A stretch of 64,000 nt of DNA, taken from NCBI GenBank assembly GCA_021018995.1, contig CM037589.1:12229001-12293000 (forward strand), in the 5' to 3' direction. This stretch comes from Chloranthus sessilifolius. Lineage: Eukaryota > Streptophyta > Magnoliopsida > Chloranthales > Chloranthaceae. The notes beneath the pieces were generated by a model, which did no database searches, was not told where the DNA came from, and saw only the letters and a program-made list of their open reading frames with translations. Of the stretch, positions 7,729 through 16,430 are shown one piece after another. Position numbers and translations under genes: made by a program. How positions within the stretch are numbered: position 1 is the stretch's first letter; the number at the start of each line of letters is the position of its first letter.

Positions 7729-7882
7729 AATCGATATCGACTCTCTATGTAATCGATAACGATTACATATACAGTCGATATCGATTGTATATAGAGTCGA
7801 TATCAATTGTATTTGTAGTCGTAATCGACTATATAAATAGTCGATGACGACTCTATAAAAAATCGATATCGACTCTCTCTGT
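7729..7882. repeat. 22-bp palindrome array 1 (7 units)
   Basis: Palindromic cores start at 7729, 7751, 7773, 7795, 7817, 7839 and 7861, exactly 22 bp apart. Each is a variant of ARTCGWTAWCGAYT followed by an 8-bp AT-rich spacer. It lies between the left TIR and the protease gene. Confidence 0.95.
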
Positions 7883-8177
7883 ATATAATTAATACCCATC
7901 TTATGAATATAATTATTACCCATCATATTAACTCCTCGATGTCATAACCCATAATAAATCATACGAGGTTTTATATTTATCTCAGCCGACGTTTAATTTC
8001 CTTCAATTTATTTCCAACTACCATTTTGTAAAACCATTATGACAAATAAGCTTGGAAGGATGAGAAATTTTAATACAACGATTCGTATTCCACCATCTAT
8101 ACACTATAAATACAGGTTTAGTTCGTCCTTAACAAAATAAGTCCCTATCATCCCTACCAGCCCATCTTTCCCTATGA

Positions 8178-8384
8178 CAGACGATAAAAAATGATAAAAT
8201 AACTAACTATAACTCAATCAAGTTCTTTCCAATATGGGAGGACCCACCATCATTACCAGAACCAGATCCTCTACAGTTCCAATGGAACGAATACGAGGAA
8301 GTGCAGAAAATTTTGGCAAAGGAAGAAAAGAAAAAGAAGAAAAGAAAGAAAAAGAAAATTAAGACGGAACCACCCACCTCTTAA
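8178..8384 (+). other. Open frame with a lysine-rich tail, no start codon
   Basis: An open stretch of about 69 codons ending in TAA at 8382-8384. It runs FFPIWEDPPSLPEPDPLQFQ, NEYEEVQKILAKEE, then a run of lysines and arginines and KTEPPTS. No in-frame ATG precedes it. The acidic-then-basic composition looks coding and resembles a nuclear-localisation tail. It could be an exon of a lost element gene or of the leader of the protease gene. I recognise no family. Confidence 0.3.
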
Positions 8385-8576
8385 TCTTAGAAGCCTAGGA
8401 CCGATCTTTATCGAAGAATCTTCTATCAGACGTTGCTGTCAGAGTCTTACTTTAGTGTGTCCAAATTTCATTTTTAACTGTAAATGAAATATTTTGAATA
8501 TAAATGAAACATTTTGAGTCGATAGAGACTTCATGAAATATTTTGAGTTTGTAAATTAAAAAATGACTCTAAATGT

Positions 8577-8787
8577 AATCAATATCGACTCTATATGTAA
8601 TCGATATCGACTCTAATTGTAATCGTTATCGAATCTATATGTAATCGATAACGACTATAAATAAAAACGATATCAATTACCTTTAGAGTCGATATCGATT
8701 ATATTTAGAGTCGTTATTGATTATATTAATAGTCGTTATCGATTACATATACAATCGATATCGAATCTAATGTAATCGATATCGGTT
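8577..8787. repeat. 22-bp palindrome array 2 (10 units)
   Basis: Cores start at 8577, 8599, 8621, 8643, 8665, 8687, 8709, 8731, 8753 and 8774: nine steps, eight of exactly 22 bp and the last of 21. It ends about 100 bp before the first exon of the DUF1985-Ulp1 gene, so it lies in its upstream or leader region. Confidence 0.95.
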
Positions 8788-12915: not shown

Positions 12916-13237
12916 AGTCATTATCAACTTTATATATAGTCGCCATCGACTATATAAATAATCGATAACGACTCTATTTAGAGTCTCTATCGACTTTATT
13001 TCGAGTCGTTATCGACTATATAAATAGTCGATATCGATTCTAAAATGAATCGATATCAACTTTATAGAAAGTTGATGACGATTCTGTATAGAGTCGCTAT
13101 CGATTATTTATATAGTCGATGGTGACTCTGTATAGAGTCGTTATCGATTATACATATAGTCGATGACGTCTCTATAAATAATTGGCAACGACTATATATA
13201 CAGTCGTCAACGACTATATATACAGTCGCTGACGTCT
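12916..13237. repeat. 22-bp palindrome array 6 (15 units), between convergent genes
   Basis: Cores start at 12916 and then every 22 bp to 13224, fourteen steps with no indel. It lies 100 bp after the protease stop codon and 150 bp from the transposase stop codon, so it occupies the shared 3' region of both genes. Confidence 0.95.
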
Positions 13238-13384
13238 CATTTGTACATTCTTGATTGCATGTTTCTGTATAACTGTATAGTAAAATTATAACTATTACGA
13301 ATCAAAAAAATCTAGATTTTAAATTTCTGAGCAAATATATATTCTCGTTTACATTCCATCTATCTTTATTAAAAATATACACTA

Positions 13385-16145
13385 TCAATCCATCGGTCCC
13401 ACTGCCGTGCAACTCCTGCTATTGTGACCATATTCACTGCACCTGCTACACTGTAGGGCTCTAACCTCACCCTTAGACCTTATCCTTCTCTTTCTCGGAC
13501 GGCCGGCTTGCTTTCGGCAATTATAAGGTGGTCTCACTTTCATATTTTCAGGGAGTTGCTCTGCTTGGAACTTCCATTGGATTTTATCGAGGGTGGAAAG
13601 TCATTGCTCATCGTATGTTTGTCTAAAGCAAGCGGTGAAAAATCACTTCTCACAGAAGTTATGATGGTCGTAACTTCTCCGATTGATGACCACCATGGCA
13701 TGGGAGCAAGACAAGCCATGAATGTGCCAACGGCGGCAACTACACGTCTTGTGTTCCAAGTCGACGTGAAGAATGAAATTTTCGGAGTTGACTTAGAATT
13801 GATCGCGCCCCTATGGTTGAGCTCTTTTTCTACCGGCCCATTGCAACACCTTTTTCATATGCTCGTCTGCTTTCAGGCAGAGGAGGGTGGTCCATTTCTC
13901 AGAAATCTGTCTGCGCTTTTGAAAATGATCAATGACTTTCTCTCTAGTAGTTCTGATTAAGTCGATAATTGGTCTCTCTCGAGCTATCTTTAGTACGCTG
14001 TTTAAGCTTTCGGCATTATTCGTAGTCAGAGAATCGTACTGCCTTCTTTCCATATGTGCGCGTGTCCAATGCTTCGGGTCTATTTTCGAAATATACCATA
14101 CGGCCCGAGGATCAGCATAATCTTTCTTCATTTCTTTCATAAAATAATTAAATCTCTCTACTGAATATGCATGCGCAGCTTTCCACCATAGATCCTTCAC
14201 ATTGTTCTTGGGATACTTGTGTGCTAAATTTTGTGTCATATGTCGCATGTAGTTGTTGTGATATGTGTTAGGGAAGATATGTTTCATCGTATTTATTAAA
14301 CCCTTCGACCTATCAGTGATAAAAATGAAATCTTCGTTAAACCCCCTGATCACGAACGCACCTACCCGTTCAAGAAACCACATTCATGTATCCTCTTCTT
14401 CTAGCTCGACGACGGCAAATGCTAACGGTAATATATGACTATTACCGTCTTACGCCGAGGCGATAAGTAGGATTCCTTCAAAACGTCCTCGTAGGTGTGT
14501 GCCGTCTACAAGCAATATGCGACGAAGTGTGTTGCGATAGCTTCAAATACACGGGCCAAAACTCTAAAAAAAATTTTGAAACTTTCCATCAAGCGTAAGT
14601 TGAAATGATATTTATACATTAGGATCTACCCTCTCCATCTCCTTCACGTAGGTCGGTAGATACACAAATTGTCCTTCCCAATTGCCTCTAATATTATTAA
14701 GGGCAAGTTCTTTTCCCCTCCAAGCGTTTGCATATGAGATTTGCATATTATAAGCTTTTGTAATATCAAATATTATCGACATCGGTATGTAATCGAATCC
14801 TTCCATAAGTTTATCCCTTACATAGTTGGCTACGAAGAAGATTATTGCATTACGATGATCGTGCGGTCTGATCTTAGCAGCCCCGCATGTGTGAGTACTA
14901 TTGAATGTCTTGATTTGGAAAGAATCGAGCCCAGTCAATTTAGACGCATGTATTCGCCACGAACAATCGGGTTCGTAGCATCTGGCTGTCACTCGATAAC
15001 TAGCAGTTTTCACAGGTCGAATTTGAAAGTTTTTCTCCACCGCGTGCTCTTTTAATGCTCTTTGAAATGTTTGTTTGTCTCGAAAGATCTCTCCAACTTT
15101 AAACATCTAATTTCGATATTCAGTTTCCACCTCTTCATCGGAGGAGTCGCCCGATGTCTCTAACACTTCGTAATCTCCGTCTACTAGGAGATTATCAATG
15201 TCTCTCACAAAAATTTTTGGATCCTCTTTTATAAACCCATCTAGTTCGCTTTCATAATCTTCTTCTAAGGTATCTTCATTAGTGGGTTGAGGATGACTAC
15301 GCCATTTACTAGCGGAATTCTCAGGTGGTTGACTAGATCCTTCACCGAAGGGGTTCTGATGTGATTGACTAGATCCTTCACCGAATCGATAATGGCGTGG
15401 TTGACTAGGCCCTTCACCGAAGGGGTGCTCATGTGTATGAACATGGGGTTGAGTTTCTCCGATAATTCCCATCGATGGCATGGTAGAACATAATTCGTGA
15501 GTAGACCAATTTGTCCATCCACCGGAGAAGATATGATTGAAATCGTCGGTATCCACCGCCTGTTCTGAAGTGTAGTCTAATCATTGACTATATTGTTGTG
15601 ACCAATGCATATATTTTAGTGGGTCATCATATGATTCAATCGGAGCATCGTTTAAATCAAGTTATTTTTCTGGCATTCATGTTCGCCGTAATATCGCTGT
15701 CATCGCCTAACGGGACGGTATCGTATACAGTTTCATCCTCAAACTTATATGGCTGAAATTTAGTCCCGCCAAGATTTACTTGTTCAGTTTCGACTCGGAA
15801 GGATGACGGTTCCTTAATGATGAACACCTTTATGGCGTCCACCCCGGATCTATAAAACATAAATAGGGTGGCCAAATCATCCGCGTCCAAAATGTCGGCA
15901 ACCACAGGGGTATTCACTATCTTCATATGAAGCTTTGTGGAAACTGTTTCATCCACCCTCGCAAAACTAACAGCAGACATTCGTCTCATGAATTGTTTAT
16001 AAGAAATACTTGTCGAAATATTAATAACCCTCCTCCGGCCACCTTCATACAAGCCATCATCATTTACAAGAAGGCCATTAGAGTGACAAAGAAGAGGAAT
16101 CTTCACTTCCGTCGTCGTCTGTTTAAGAATGAGAAGGAAGGTCAT
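13385..16145 (-). pseudogene. mudrA-type MULE transposase, decayed
   Basis: Minus strand, in one frame from 15556 to the TGA at 13387-13385, with the N-terminal part (15657-16145) in another frame. Order: PB1-like N-terminus (GLLVNDDGLYEGGRRRV), acidic and PFGEG-SQP repeat region, the MULE DNA-binding region (MFKVGEIFRDKQTFQRALKE, then C-x4-C...H-x-C), the DDE core (LLVDGTHLRGRF, FITDRSKGL, TTNNAESLN), the SWIM zinc finger (CSCRRWHIHGLSCSH) and a zinc knuckle (CSRCSEYGHNSRSC). All three DDE residues are present. About ten in-frame stops interrupt it, most explained by TGG or CGA to TGA, CAG to TAG or CAA to TAA, and there is at least one frame change. A TTAAACAG acceptor near 16122 suggests an upstream leader intron holding array 7. 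Confidence 0.92.
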
Positions 16146-16180
16146 AAGACTGATGAAACAAAAAAGAAAAGACTATATAC

Positions 16181-16430
16181 AATCGATTATATATACAATC
16201 GATACCGATTATATATACAATCGATATCAACTGTATATATAATCGATATCGACTCTATATACAGTCGATATCGATTTCAAACTATATACAATCGATATCG
16301 ATTGTATATATAATCGTCATCGACTTTATAGACAATCGTTATCGATTAAATATAGAGTCGATAACGATTATATTTGTAATCGATATCGACTGTATATAAA
16401 ATCGATGACGATTATATTTGCACTCGAAAT
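16181..16430. repeat. 22-bp palindrome array 7 (about 12 units)
   Basis: A truncated first unit at 16181, then cores at 16197, 16219, 16241, 16263, 16290, 16312, 16334, 16356, 16378, 16400 and 16422. All steps are 22 bp except one of 27. It lies directly upstream of the transposase gene, probably in its leader or first intron. Confidence 0.95.

Follow-up and report, generated by a model that had tools for sequence, protein, structure and literature searches.

Overall organization of the element

A Mutator-like element (MULE) of 9.6 kb spans positions 7352-16942 of the window, the 64,000-nucleotide stretch of DNA that was analyzed. The element is bounded by a 9-bp TSD (TTTGTTCCT) and by 79-bp TIRs, whose alignment consists of 77 columns with 11 mismatches and a leading GG that was read directly (Table 1). 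The earlier note had identified the element as a MULE, and the TSD, the MuDR-type transposase and the long TIRs (which are typical of MULEs, although not universal) all confirmed this identity. VANDAL elements are characterized by degenerated or absent TIRs; the TIRs of this element are intact, and it is therefore not classed as a VANDAL. The non-TIR trait of Kaonashi (KIU) carriers is likewise not present.

The element contains two genes. In the gene on the + strand, an Ulp1 protease follows a DUF1985-like domain and a coiled-coil region, a build like that of the VANC and Kaonashi genes of Arabidopsis MULEs. The transposase gene is located on the - strand, so that the Ulp1 (C48) gene and the transposase gene are arranged in the opposite orientation seen in Kaonashi/KIU elements. 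Seven arrays of a 14-bp palindrome occupy the element's non-coding gaps, and nearly all of their steps are exactly 22 bp. Dense tandem arrays of short motifs in non-coding element parts are a feature of VANC/VANDAL systems.

Table 1. Features of the element (positions in the window)
Feature	Position	Strand	Remarks
TSD, left copy, 9 bp	7343..7351	.	identical to 16943-16951
TIR, left, 79 bp	7352..7430	+	68/79 identical to right TIR
Array 1, 7 units	7725..7880	.	between TIR and + strand gene
Array 2, 10 units	8573..8791	.	upstream of + strand gene
DUF1985-like exon of VANC/KIU-like gene	8885..9668	+	frameshift-broken in window copy; GT donor by eye
Array 3, 12-13 clear units	9711..10031	.	intron after DUF1985-like exon
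Coiled-coil exon, basic stretch ahead	10091..10680	+	weak sub-cut-off Pfam matches to coiled-coil families
Array 4, 10 units	10723..10942	.	intron after coiled-coil exon; borders by eye
Variable exon	10975..11417	+	32-65% identity to window in other copies; no Pfam match
Array 5, 11 units	11666..11909	.	intron after variable exon; borders by eye
Conserved exon ahead of Ulp1 exons	11951..12247	+	no Pfam match
Ulp1 (peptidase C48) exons	12298..12815	+	PF02902, E 7e-5 and 7.5e-11, both above cut-off
Array 6, 15 units	12912..13241	.	between 3' ends of two convergent genes
MuDR-type transposase gene	13385..16172	-	frameshifted in window copy
Array 7, 10-12 units	16181..16417	.	upstream of transposase gene
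TIR, right	16864..16942	-	alignment to left TIR
TSD, right copy, 9 bp	16943..16951	.	TTTGTTCCT

VANC/KIU-like and transposase genes

Long open frames of the DUF1985-like exon are found in two other copies of the element (L017 and L022). The homologous exons of four other copies matched PF09331 with E values of 5.5e-7 to 2e-5, all four below the curated cut-off, and the two exon pieces of the window copy itself gave no Pfam match. A comparison of this exon (P0001) with PDB chains yielded no match at E values up to 1. In the coiled-coil region, the heptad score of the window copy exceeds those of 200 of 200 shuffles, and the coiled-coil signal is weak in two (L016 and L022) of the three copies scored in the right frame. 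The Ulp1 catalytic set of His, Asp, Gln and Cys is fully present in the window copy, and His, Asp and Cys are complete in 12 of the 18 tabulated copies. The transposase gene matched PF03108 (E 3e-16, 59.3 bits) and PF00872 (E 1.3e-5, 24.7 bits) above the cut-off and PF10551 and zf-CCHC below it.

Structure and spacing of the arrays

The core RRTCGWTAWCGAYY is found 72 times in the element with two or fewer mismatches and seven times in the ~54 kb of the window outside it; as a control for the 72 cores, 100 mononucleotide shuffles averaged 1.2 cores and never exceeded 4. When no more than one mismatch is allowed, the window has 58 cores, every one of them in positions 7700-16450. The seven arrays described in the earlier note were all recovered where it had placed them, together with its off-period steps of 21 bp (8753-8774), 24 bp (11780-11804) and 27 bp (16263-16290). 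Its total of 78 units compares with about 75-78 in our recount, in which the counts of arrays 1, 2, 4, 5 and 6 were reproduced and those of arrays 3 (12-13) and 7 (10-12) varied with the inclusion of decayed end units.

In the window element and 20 fetched 10-kb stretches, 737 of the 780 steps of 12-33 bp (94.5%) are exactly 22 bp. The phase from array to array within one element is not constant modulo 22 (five copies). TRF also detected higher-order periods of 44, 66 and 110 bp, which suggest that the arrays grew by blocks of several units. In the part of the copies that was examined, 736 of 743 cores (one or no mismatch) lie outside protein-matched bases. The intron that holds array 3 is bordered, as judged by eye, by the donor GTATGA and the acceptor TTTCAAAAG.

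Confinement of the arrays to one MULE family

The arrays are confined to the non-coding DNA of one MULE family. All 20 array loci sampled on contig C1 bear the TIR and/or proteins of the family, and each of 14 loci on other contigs, which were picked by their TIR, has an array within about 3 kb. These loci bear out the expectation that the arrays reside mainly inside this family. A free satellite was rejected, as none of the 20 sampled array loci lies outside the family. The arrays are also carried by sibling copies; they are thus neither free nor missing from siblings, the two observations by which the earlier note would have recognized a chance capture. A non-autonomous copy (L013) has kept its TIRs and two arrays and matches none of the proteins of the element.

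Conservation of the core

Constraint on the core was assessed in 342 units selected without regard to their own match. Eight core positions are 90-99% fixed in these units, and differences amount to 11.5% at these eight key positions, 34% at the other core positions and 43% in the spacer. The core frame is common to the subfamilies, between which the coiled-coil segment is 38-54% identical. The core center varies between subfamilies A and B: TTAA is present in 3 of 214 units of subfamily A and 14 of 128 units of subfamily B, ATAC in 1 and 25 units, and CTAT in 18 and 1 units, respectively. Many array units are perfect palindromes. The two outer variable core bases are not strictly paired, and A..C, G..T, A..T and G..C are all common. 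A generalized half-site code, ARNCG, gave no exact pairs with either N = A or N = C.

Rates of change were compared in eight sibling pairs, with some copies common to several pairs. Cores show 0.088 substitutions per site and 11.0 indels per kb, spacers 0.145 and 15.6, other non-coding DNA 0.083 and 15.9, and coding matches 0.080 and 9.6. Fewer indels or substitutions had been expected in the arrays than in neighboring introns, and such slower change was not seen in these eight pairs; the cores are substituted no more slowly than nearby non-coding DNA. Transitions number 92 in 1368 CpG positions versus 51 in 1368 T/A positions, and the absent slowdown may be due in part to CpG decay. The lack of slower arrays among siblings suggests that constancy, if selected, would be maintained in the active lineage and not in individual old copies. 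The interpretation given in the earlier note is supported in part: core fixation, the contrast between core and spacer and recurrence in siblings support selection on phased sites, and the sibling-rate test gave no support for slower change in the arrays.

A second DUF1985 family with a changed half-site

Another DUF1985 family of this genome carries arrays of a related palindrome, GAAGCGnnnnCGCTTC (motif 2), with a changed half-site. The motif-2 pattern has 1247 matches genome-wide and none in a reversed control. Motif 2 with a 3-bp center gave no matches and was rejected; the center is 4 bp long. In the locus L046, the DUF1985 domain lies above the Pfam cut-off (50.7 bits) and shares 38% identity with P0001 over 148 residues. 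L046 contains 26 motif-2 sites (three or fewer mismatches) and lacks motif-1 sites; where its motif-2 sites form runs, most steps measure 21-22 bp. No Ulp1 was seen by eye in the 6 kb fetched for this locus.

Six of the 14 matches to the L046 DUF1985 domain on C1 lie within 10 kb of the motif-2 pattern, compared with 0.05 expected, and around the remaining eight no exact copy of that pattern occurs in this range. None of the 11 other DUF1985 matches on C1 is found within 10 kb of the motif-2 pattern. In the part of C1 with complete lists for both motifs, none of five motif-2 places is near a motif-1 place, and among the matches listed, none of the six PF09331 places on C1 below 52.8 Mb is near motif 1. 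Neither array type is present within 6 kb of four of the five DUF1985 loci fetched.

Proposed function of the arrays

VANC proteins bind to motifs that are repeated in tandem in non-coding DNA of the TEs encoding them, and they induce methylation loss and relieve silencing (Hosaka 2017, PMC5735166; Sasaki 2023, PMC10398659). The arrays of this element are probably cis-acting landing pads for an element-encoded protein that counters silencing, the likeliest being the VANC/Kaonashi-type product with its DUF1985-like, coiled-coil and Ulp1 regions. We infer the identity of the binding protein, its dimer state and the anti-silencing outcome. The coiled coil would hold the product as a dimer, and the dimer would read both inverted half-sites (ARTCG..CGAYT). 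Dozens of such sites, two turns apart, would be presented on one helix face, and the bound protein would cover the element's non-coding gaps. There it would remove or prevent DNA methylation and silencing directed by small RNAs, and both genes and both ends of the element would stay active. The confinement to one family, the non-coding placement, the core constraint, the build of the + strand gene, the second DUF1985 family, L013 and the VANC precedent speak for this reading. The sub-cut-off DUF1985 matches, the DUF1985 loci that lie far from either motif, the sibling rates, the weak coiled-coil signal in two copies and the differences from VANC21 and VANDALs in motif and TIRs speak against it.

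The arrays could instead bind the transposase, either for end synapsis or for transposase-driven activation, like the subterminal TnpA sites of Spm. The transposase is the better conserved protein (in subfamily B, its segments share 67-86% identity with those of the window), as the core is conserved, and L013 retains arrays and TIRs only; moreover, PMC10398659 describes a correlation between TnpA activity and Spm demethylation, and a decrease of TIR methylation by MURA. However, arrays 3-6 are located far from the ends, three being intronic, with no obvious use in end synapsis, and another DUF1985 family, sampled here apart from its transposase, has a motif of its own; the transposase is an unlikely partner. 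A host transcription or chromatin factor that used the arrays as enhancers for both genes is distinctly unlikely. The upstream and intronic positions suit enhancers, but array 6 is flanked on both sides by the 3' ends of genes. Two element families of one genome have different motifs, and subfamilies A and B have different centers; such differences are expected of a co-evolving element factor.

A neutral by-product, in which a captured 22-bp unit was duplicated in tandem and spread by slippage and gene conversion, would agree with the block duplication suggested by the higher-order periods and with the sibling cores, which change no more slowly than other non-coding DNA. It predicts equal divergence of core and spacer, whereas the key positions and the spacer differ markedly (11.5% versus 43%), and the design recurs in seven gaps of the element, in both subfamilies and in the second family; a neutral origin is very improbable. 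It is barely conceivable that the palindromes act as RNA or DNA hairpins (in splicing, as a small-RNA source or as cruciforms) and not as protein sites: perfect palindromes are frequent among the units and introns hold three of the arrays, but the inferred coding spans do not include arrays 1, 2, 6 and 7, and the two outer variable bases are not kept as strict pairs.

Extending the landing-pad reading, we tentatively propose a class of TIR-MULE anti-silencing systems in which a dimer on one helical face might read a palindromic CpG code. Methylation of the core could block binding, and the array would then be a methylation-sensing switch; sister families would be separated mainly by a half-site position (ARTCG versus AAGCG) within a common frame (4-bp center and 21-22-bp period). 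If true, TE-encoded sequence-specific anti-silencing extends to TIR-bearing MULEs in another plant, and the code is unusually clean, with two coexisting systems that combine a near-identical frame with different half-sites. It would then become testable how a transposon protein recognizes the copies of its own element, and whether the regular spacing and the CpG of the site matter to the undoing of silencing.

Comparison with known systems

The VANDAL21/VANC21 system of Arabidopsis is reportedly the subject of Fu 2013, and Kaonashi (KIU) MULEs and Ulp1-bearing VANC genes are said to be that of Sasaki 2022 (EMBO J). Spm sites are known only from subterminal positions, unlike the arrays here, and TnpA is not known to be related to the protein proposed here. 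A literature search over titles and the starts of abstracts, in which Sasaki 2022 was not included, found no palindromic arrays in MULEs.

The Ulp1 domain in a VANC-type gene is a likeness to Kaonashi and other Ulp1-bearing VANC genes (PMC13317346), and its reversal relative to the transposase is a likeness to KI-MULEs (PMC2528002), although the Arabidopsis KI-MULEs are non-TIR in the sections consulted. Those sections of PMC13317346 and PMC2528002 do not mention arrays of this palindrome. TIR-MULEs of melon and grapevine also carry Ulp1, in either orientation (van Leeuwen 2007, cited in PMC2528002); the sections consulted mention no array in them, and the word 'tandem' occurs 0 times in the main text of that paper. 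Many short sites for an element protein that relieves methylation, as predicted here, are also known for TnpA of Spm/En; PMC10398659 mentions the demethylation.

The earlier note knew of no element with such arrays, which is wrong in kind: Arabidopsis VANDAL elements have comparable tandem motif arrays in similar sorts of places (PMC5735166, in part). Like VANDAL21 and VANDAL6 with VANC21 and VANC6, the element is Mu-like with a second gene, here with a DUF1985-like region that scores below the Pfam cut-off, and has dense tandem short motifs in introns and upstream of the transposase; as in VANDALs, the motif is largely confined to the family and related families have different motifs (PMC5735166 and PMC10398659, sections consulted). 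In the same sections, the VANC21 motif YAGTATTAY is without CpG, non-palindromic and in a single orientation, whereas the palindrome here has two CpGs and a fixed 22-bp step, and the 79-bp TIRs differ from the degenerated TIRs of VANDALs. Relative to the published VANC motif, the palindromic CpG-bearing core, the strict two-turn phasing and the intact TIRs are new.

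Structure of the element and its arrays

The window lies on a contig (C6) of a 2.17-Gb assembly and contains a Mutator-like element (MULE) whose two genes lie on opposite strands, with seven arrays of a 14-bp palindromic core (motif 1) in its gaps. No Pfam match was obtained for the conserved exon of the second gene. The coiled-coil evidence is good for the window copy and weak for two other copies. Both genes contain frameshifts, and the window copy itself is therefore probably dead. The element contains 72 cores at ≤2 mismatches, whereas mononucleotide shuffles average 1.2. 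The unit counts and off-period steps that an earlier note had read from the seven arrays were reproduced on recount.

Features of the window and of fetched stretches (L) elsewhere in the genome
Feature	Position	Strand	Description
Mutator-like element	7352-16942		Terminal inverted repeats (TIRs) of 79 bp, identity 68/79; 9-bp target-site duplication TTTGTTCCT
MuDR-type transposase gene		minus	PF03108 and PF00872 above cut-off
Second gene		plus	Exon order DUF1985-like, coiled-coil, variable, conserved, Ulp1 (peptidase C48)
Array			Near left TIR
Array			Upstream of second gene
Arrays			In three introns of second gene; intron borders judged by eye
Array			Between converging 3' ends of both genes
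Array			Upstream of transposase gene
CCGATA/TATCGG words	6500-7260		Just left of element; 8 and 7 in kb bins 6 and 7
CCGATA/TATCGG words	63000-64000		Window end; 9 in kb bin 63
Open frames	52771-55205	minus	Resemble retrotransposon polyprotein, by eye
Tandem repeats	46329-46474		30 and 57 bp, within open frame with many repeated GGELA-type words
164-bp unit	62371-62699		Twice, head-to-tail, 84% matching
L035 array	960-1410		Enlarged, 21 cores
L040 array	1200-1718		Enlarged, 24 cores
L047 tandem repeat	1465-1598		55 bp, perfect (2.4 copies, 100% match)

Distribution of the arrays in the genome

Motif scans covered this one plant genome, in which a two-unit motif-1 pattern has 2498 matches and the reversed pattern none. 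On another contig, C1, the places listed up to 28 Mb group into 24 clusters, and 10 kb was taken around 20 of them. TIRs and/or proteins of this MULE family were present at all 20 loci. The fetched stretches of three loci (L017, L024 and L026) contain family proteins and no TIR, and that of L027 contains only a partial TIR. L013 has two arrays and TIRs ~2 kb apart, and showed no match to the proteins of the window element. Because the C1 loci had been picked by the motif itself, a second sample was picked by TIR. It consisted of 14 loci outside C1, drawn from the 40 best TIR matches, with ~3 kb taken at each; every one of these loci, which are close to the window's subfamily, carries at least one array. 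The 150 transposase matches listed, out of at least 150, are all ≥85% identical and many have long open frames, which makes this a large family with some less decayed members. Compared with like copies, which mostly have about 10-15 cores, the enlarged arrays of L035 and L040 suggest growth by whole units.

Apart from L013, the window and C1 loci form group A (the window and 8 others) and group B (11). B proteins are 38-54% identical to those of the window in the coil segment, 47-59% in the Ulp1 end and 67-86% in the transposase segments. The core frame is common to both groups, with the palindrome lengthened by C..G in B. The centres differ between B (128 units) and A (214 units): TTAA occurs in 14 and 3 units, ATAC in 25 and 1, and CTAT in 1 and 18, respectively. 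The motif changes along with the element.

Constraint on core and spacing

In 342 units selected solely by a match of both neighbours, T2, C3, G4, T6, A7, C9, G10 and A11 are fixed at 90-99%, and spacer positions carry 0.09-1.09 bits, highest at the T and A meeting mid-spacer. When these units are compared over distances of up to 350 bp, differences amount to 11.5% at the eight key positions, 34% in the rest of the core and 43% in the spacer; for units selected by their core match, a similar count yielded 12%, with 21% over the whole core and 45% in the spacer. With cores at ≤2 mismatches, 780 steps measure 12-33 bp, and 737 of them are exactly 22 bp. Perfect core pairs with a free gap of 0-30, searched genome-wide, are spaced by 22 or 44 in 48 of the 50 listed from 789.

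CpG reaches 2.87-fold of expectation in arrays and 0.91 elsewhere, but the arrays were found by a CpG-bearing consensus, so CpG retention in the unconditioned units is the better measure. CpG transition is the most frequent decay (92/1368, compared with 51/1368 transitions at T/A positions), an excess that would be expected from methylation of old copies.

The expectation that arrays change more slowly than nearby non-coding DNA failed in a comparison of eight sibling pairs, some sharing copies. Substitutions per site were 0.088 in cores, 0.083 in other non-coding DNA, 0.145 in spacers and 0.080 in coding matches; the corresponding indels per kb were 11.0, 15.9, 15.6 and 9.6. Since cores are no slower than other non-coding or coding DNA, the comparison, which the earlier note had proposed, does not show selection between inserted copies and counts against the anti-silencing reading given below. 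Array divergence may be inflated through alignment across shifted units. Many copies are broken and the CpG-rich cores are quick to mutate; selection, if any, would act in the active lineage.

A second DUF1985 family and its motif

The genome contains at least 150 matches to DUF1985 (PF09331), of which five were examined with 6 kb around each; four of these lack arrays of motif 1 or of motif 2, GAAGCG-NNNN-CGCTTC. At L046, which represents a second family, motif-2 arrays flank the DUF1985 exon on both sides (34 sites at ≤4 mismatches; shuffle mean 10.3, maximum 19). In a single comparison, this exon is 38% identical (E 3e-32) to P0001, the DUF1985-like exon protein of the window's family. L046 also contains a leucine-rich, coiled-coil-like stretch, judged by eye, with one stop. 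A spaced motif-2 pattern has 1247 genome-wide matches and the control none. Among 50 listed of 202 perfect pairs with free gaps, 28 are spaced at 22, 12 at 44 and 10 at 18-46; the spacing within L046 is mostly 21. On C1, the exact pattern lies ≤10 kb from 6 of 14 matches to the L046 DUF1985 (expected 0.05), is absent within 10 kb of the remaining 8, and occurs within 10 kb of none of 11 other DUF1985 matches.

Motifs 1 and 2 have in common a 4-bp centre, flanking CpGs and an outer A, and differ mainly in T versus G (ARTCG, AAGCG). No exact pairs were found when this variable half-site position was set to A or C. The L047 repeat might be a third target type; it lies close to a DUF1985 match that has no palindromic arrays.

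Relation to known anti-silencing systems

Motif sequence, density and helical periodicity reportedly determine specificity (Sasaki 2022). Arabidopsis VANC proteins (DUF1985) bind short motifs that stand in tandem in the introns and upstream regions of VANDAL elements of their own family and cause methylation loss, and families differ in both motif and VANC (PMC5735166, PMC10398659); a similar action is described for Kaonashi, the Ulp1-bearing VANC genes, in a review (PMC13317346). The window element has a like gene type, array type and placement. By this analogy, we infer that its DUF1985-like/coiled-coil/Ulp1 product would bind the palindromes as a dimer, which the palindromic core fits, at sites phased two helical turns apart, and would counteract silencing of the element. 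VANDALs have degenerated TIRs, whereas those of the window element are intact, so it is not classed as a VANDAL. TIR-MULEs with Ulp1 are already known from melon and grapevine (PMC2528002). Relative to the published descriptions cited here, the new features are a palindromic core that contains CpGs, strict phasing at 22 bp, intact TIRs and the presence of two related codes within one genome.

Elsewhere in the window, the CCGATA/TATCGG clusters are possibly another repeat with a short CpG-bearing motif.
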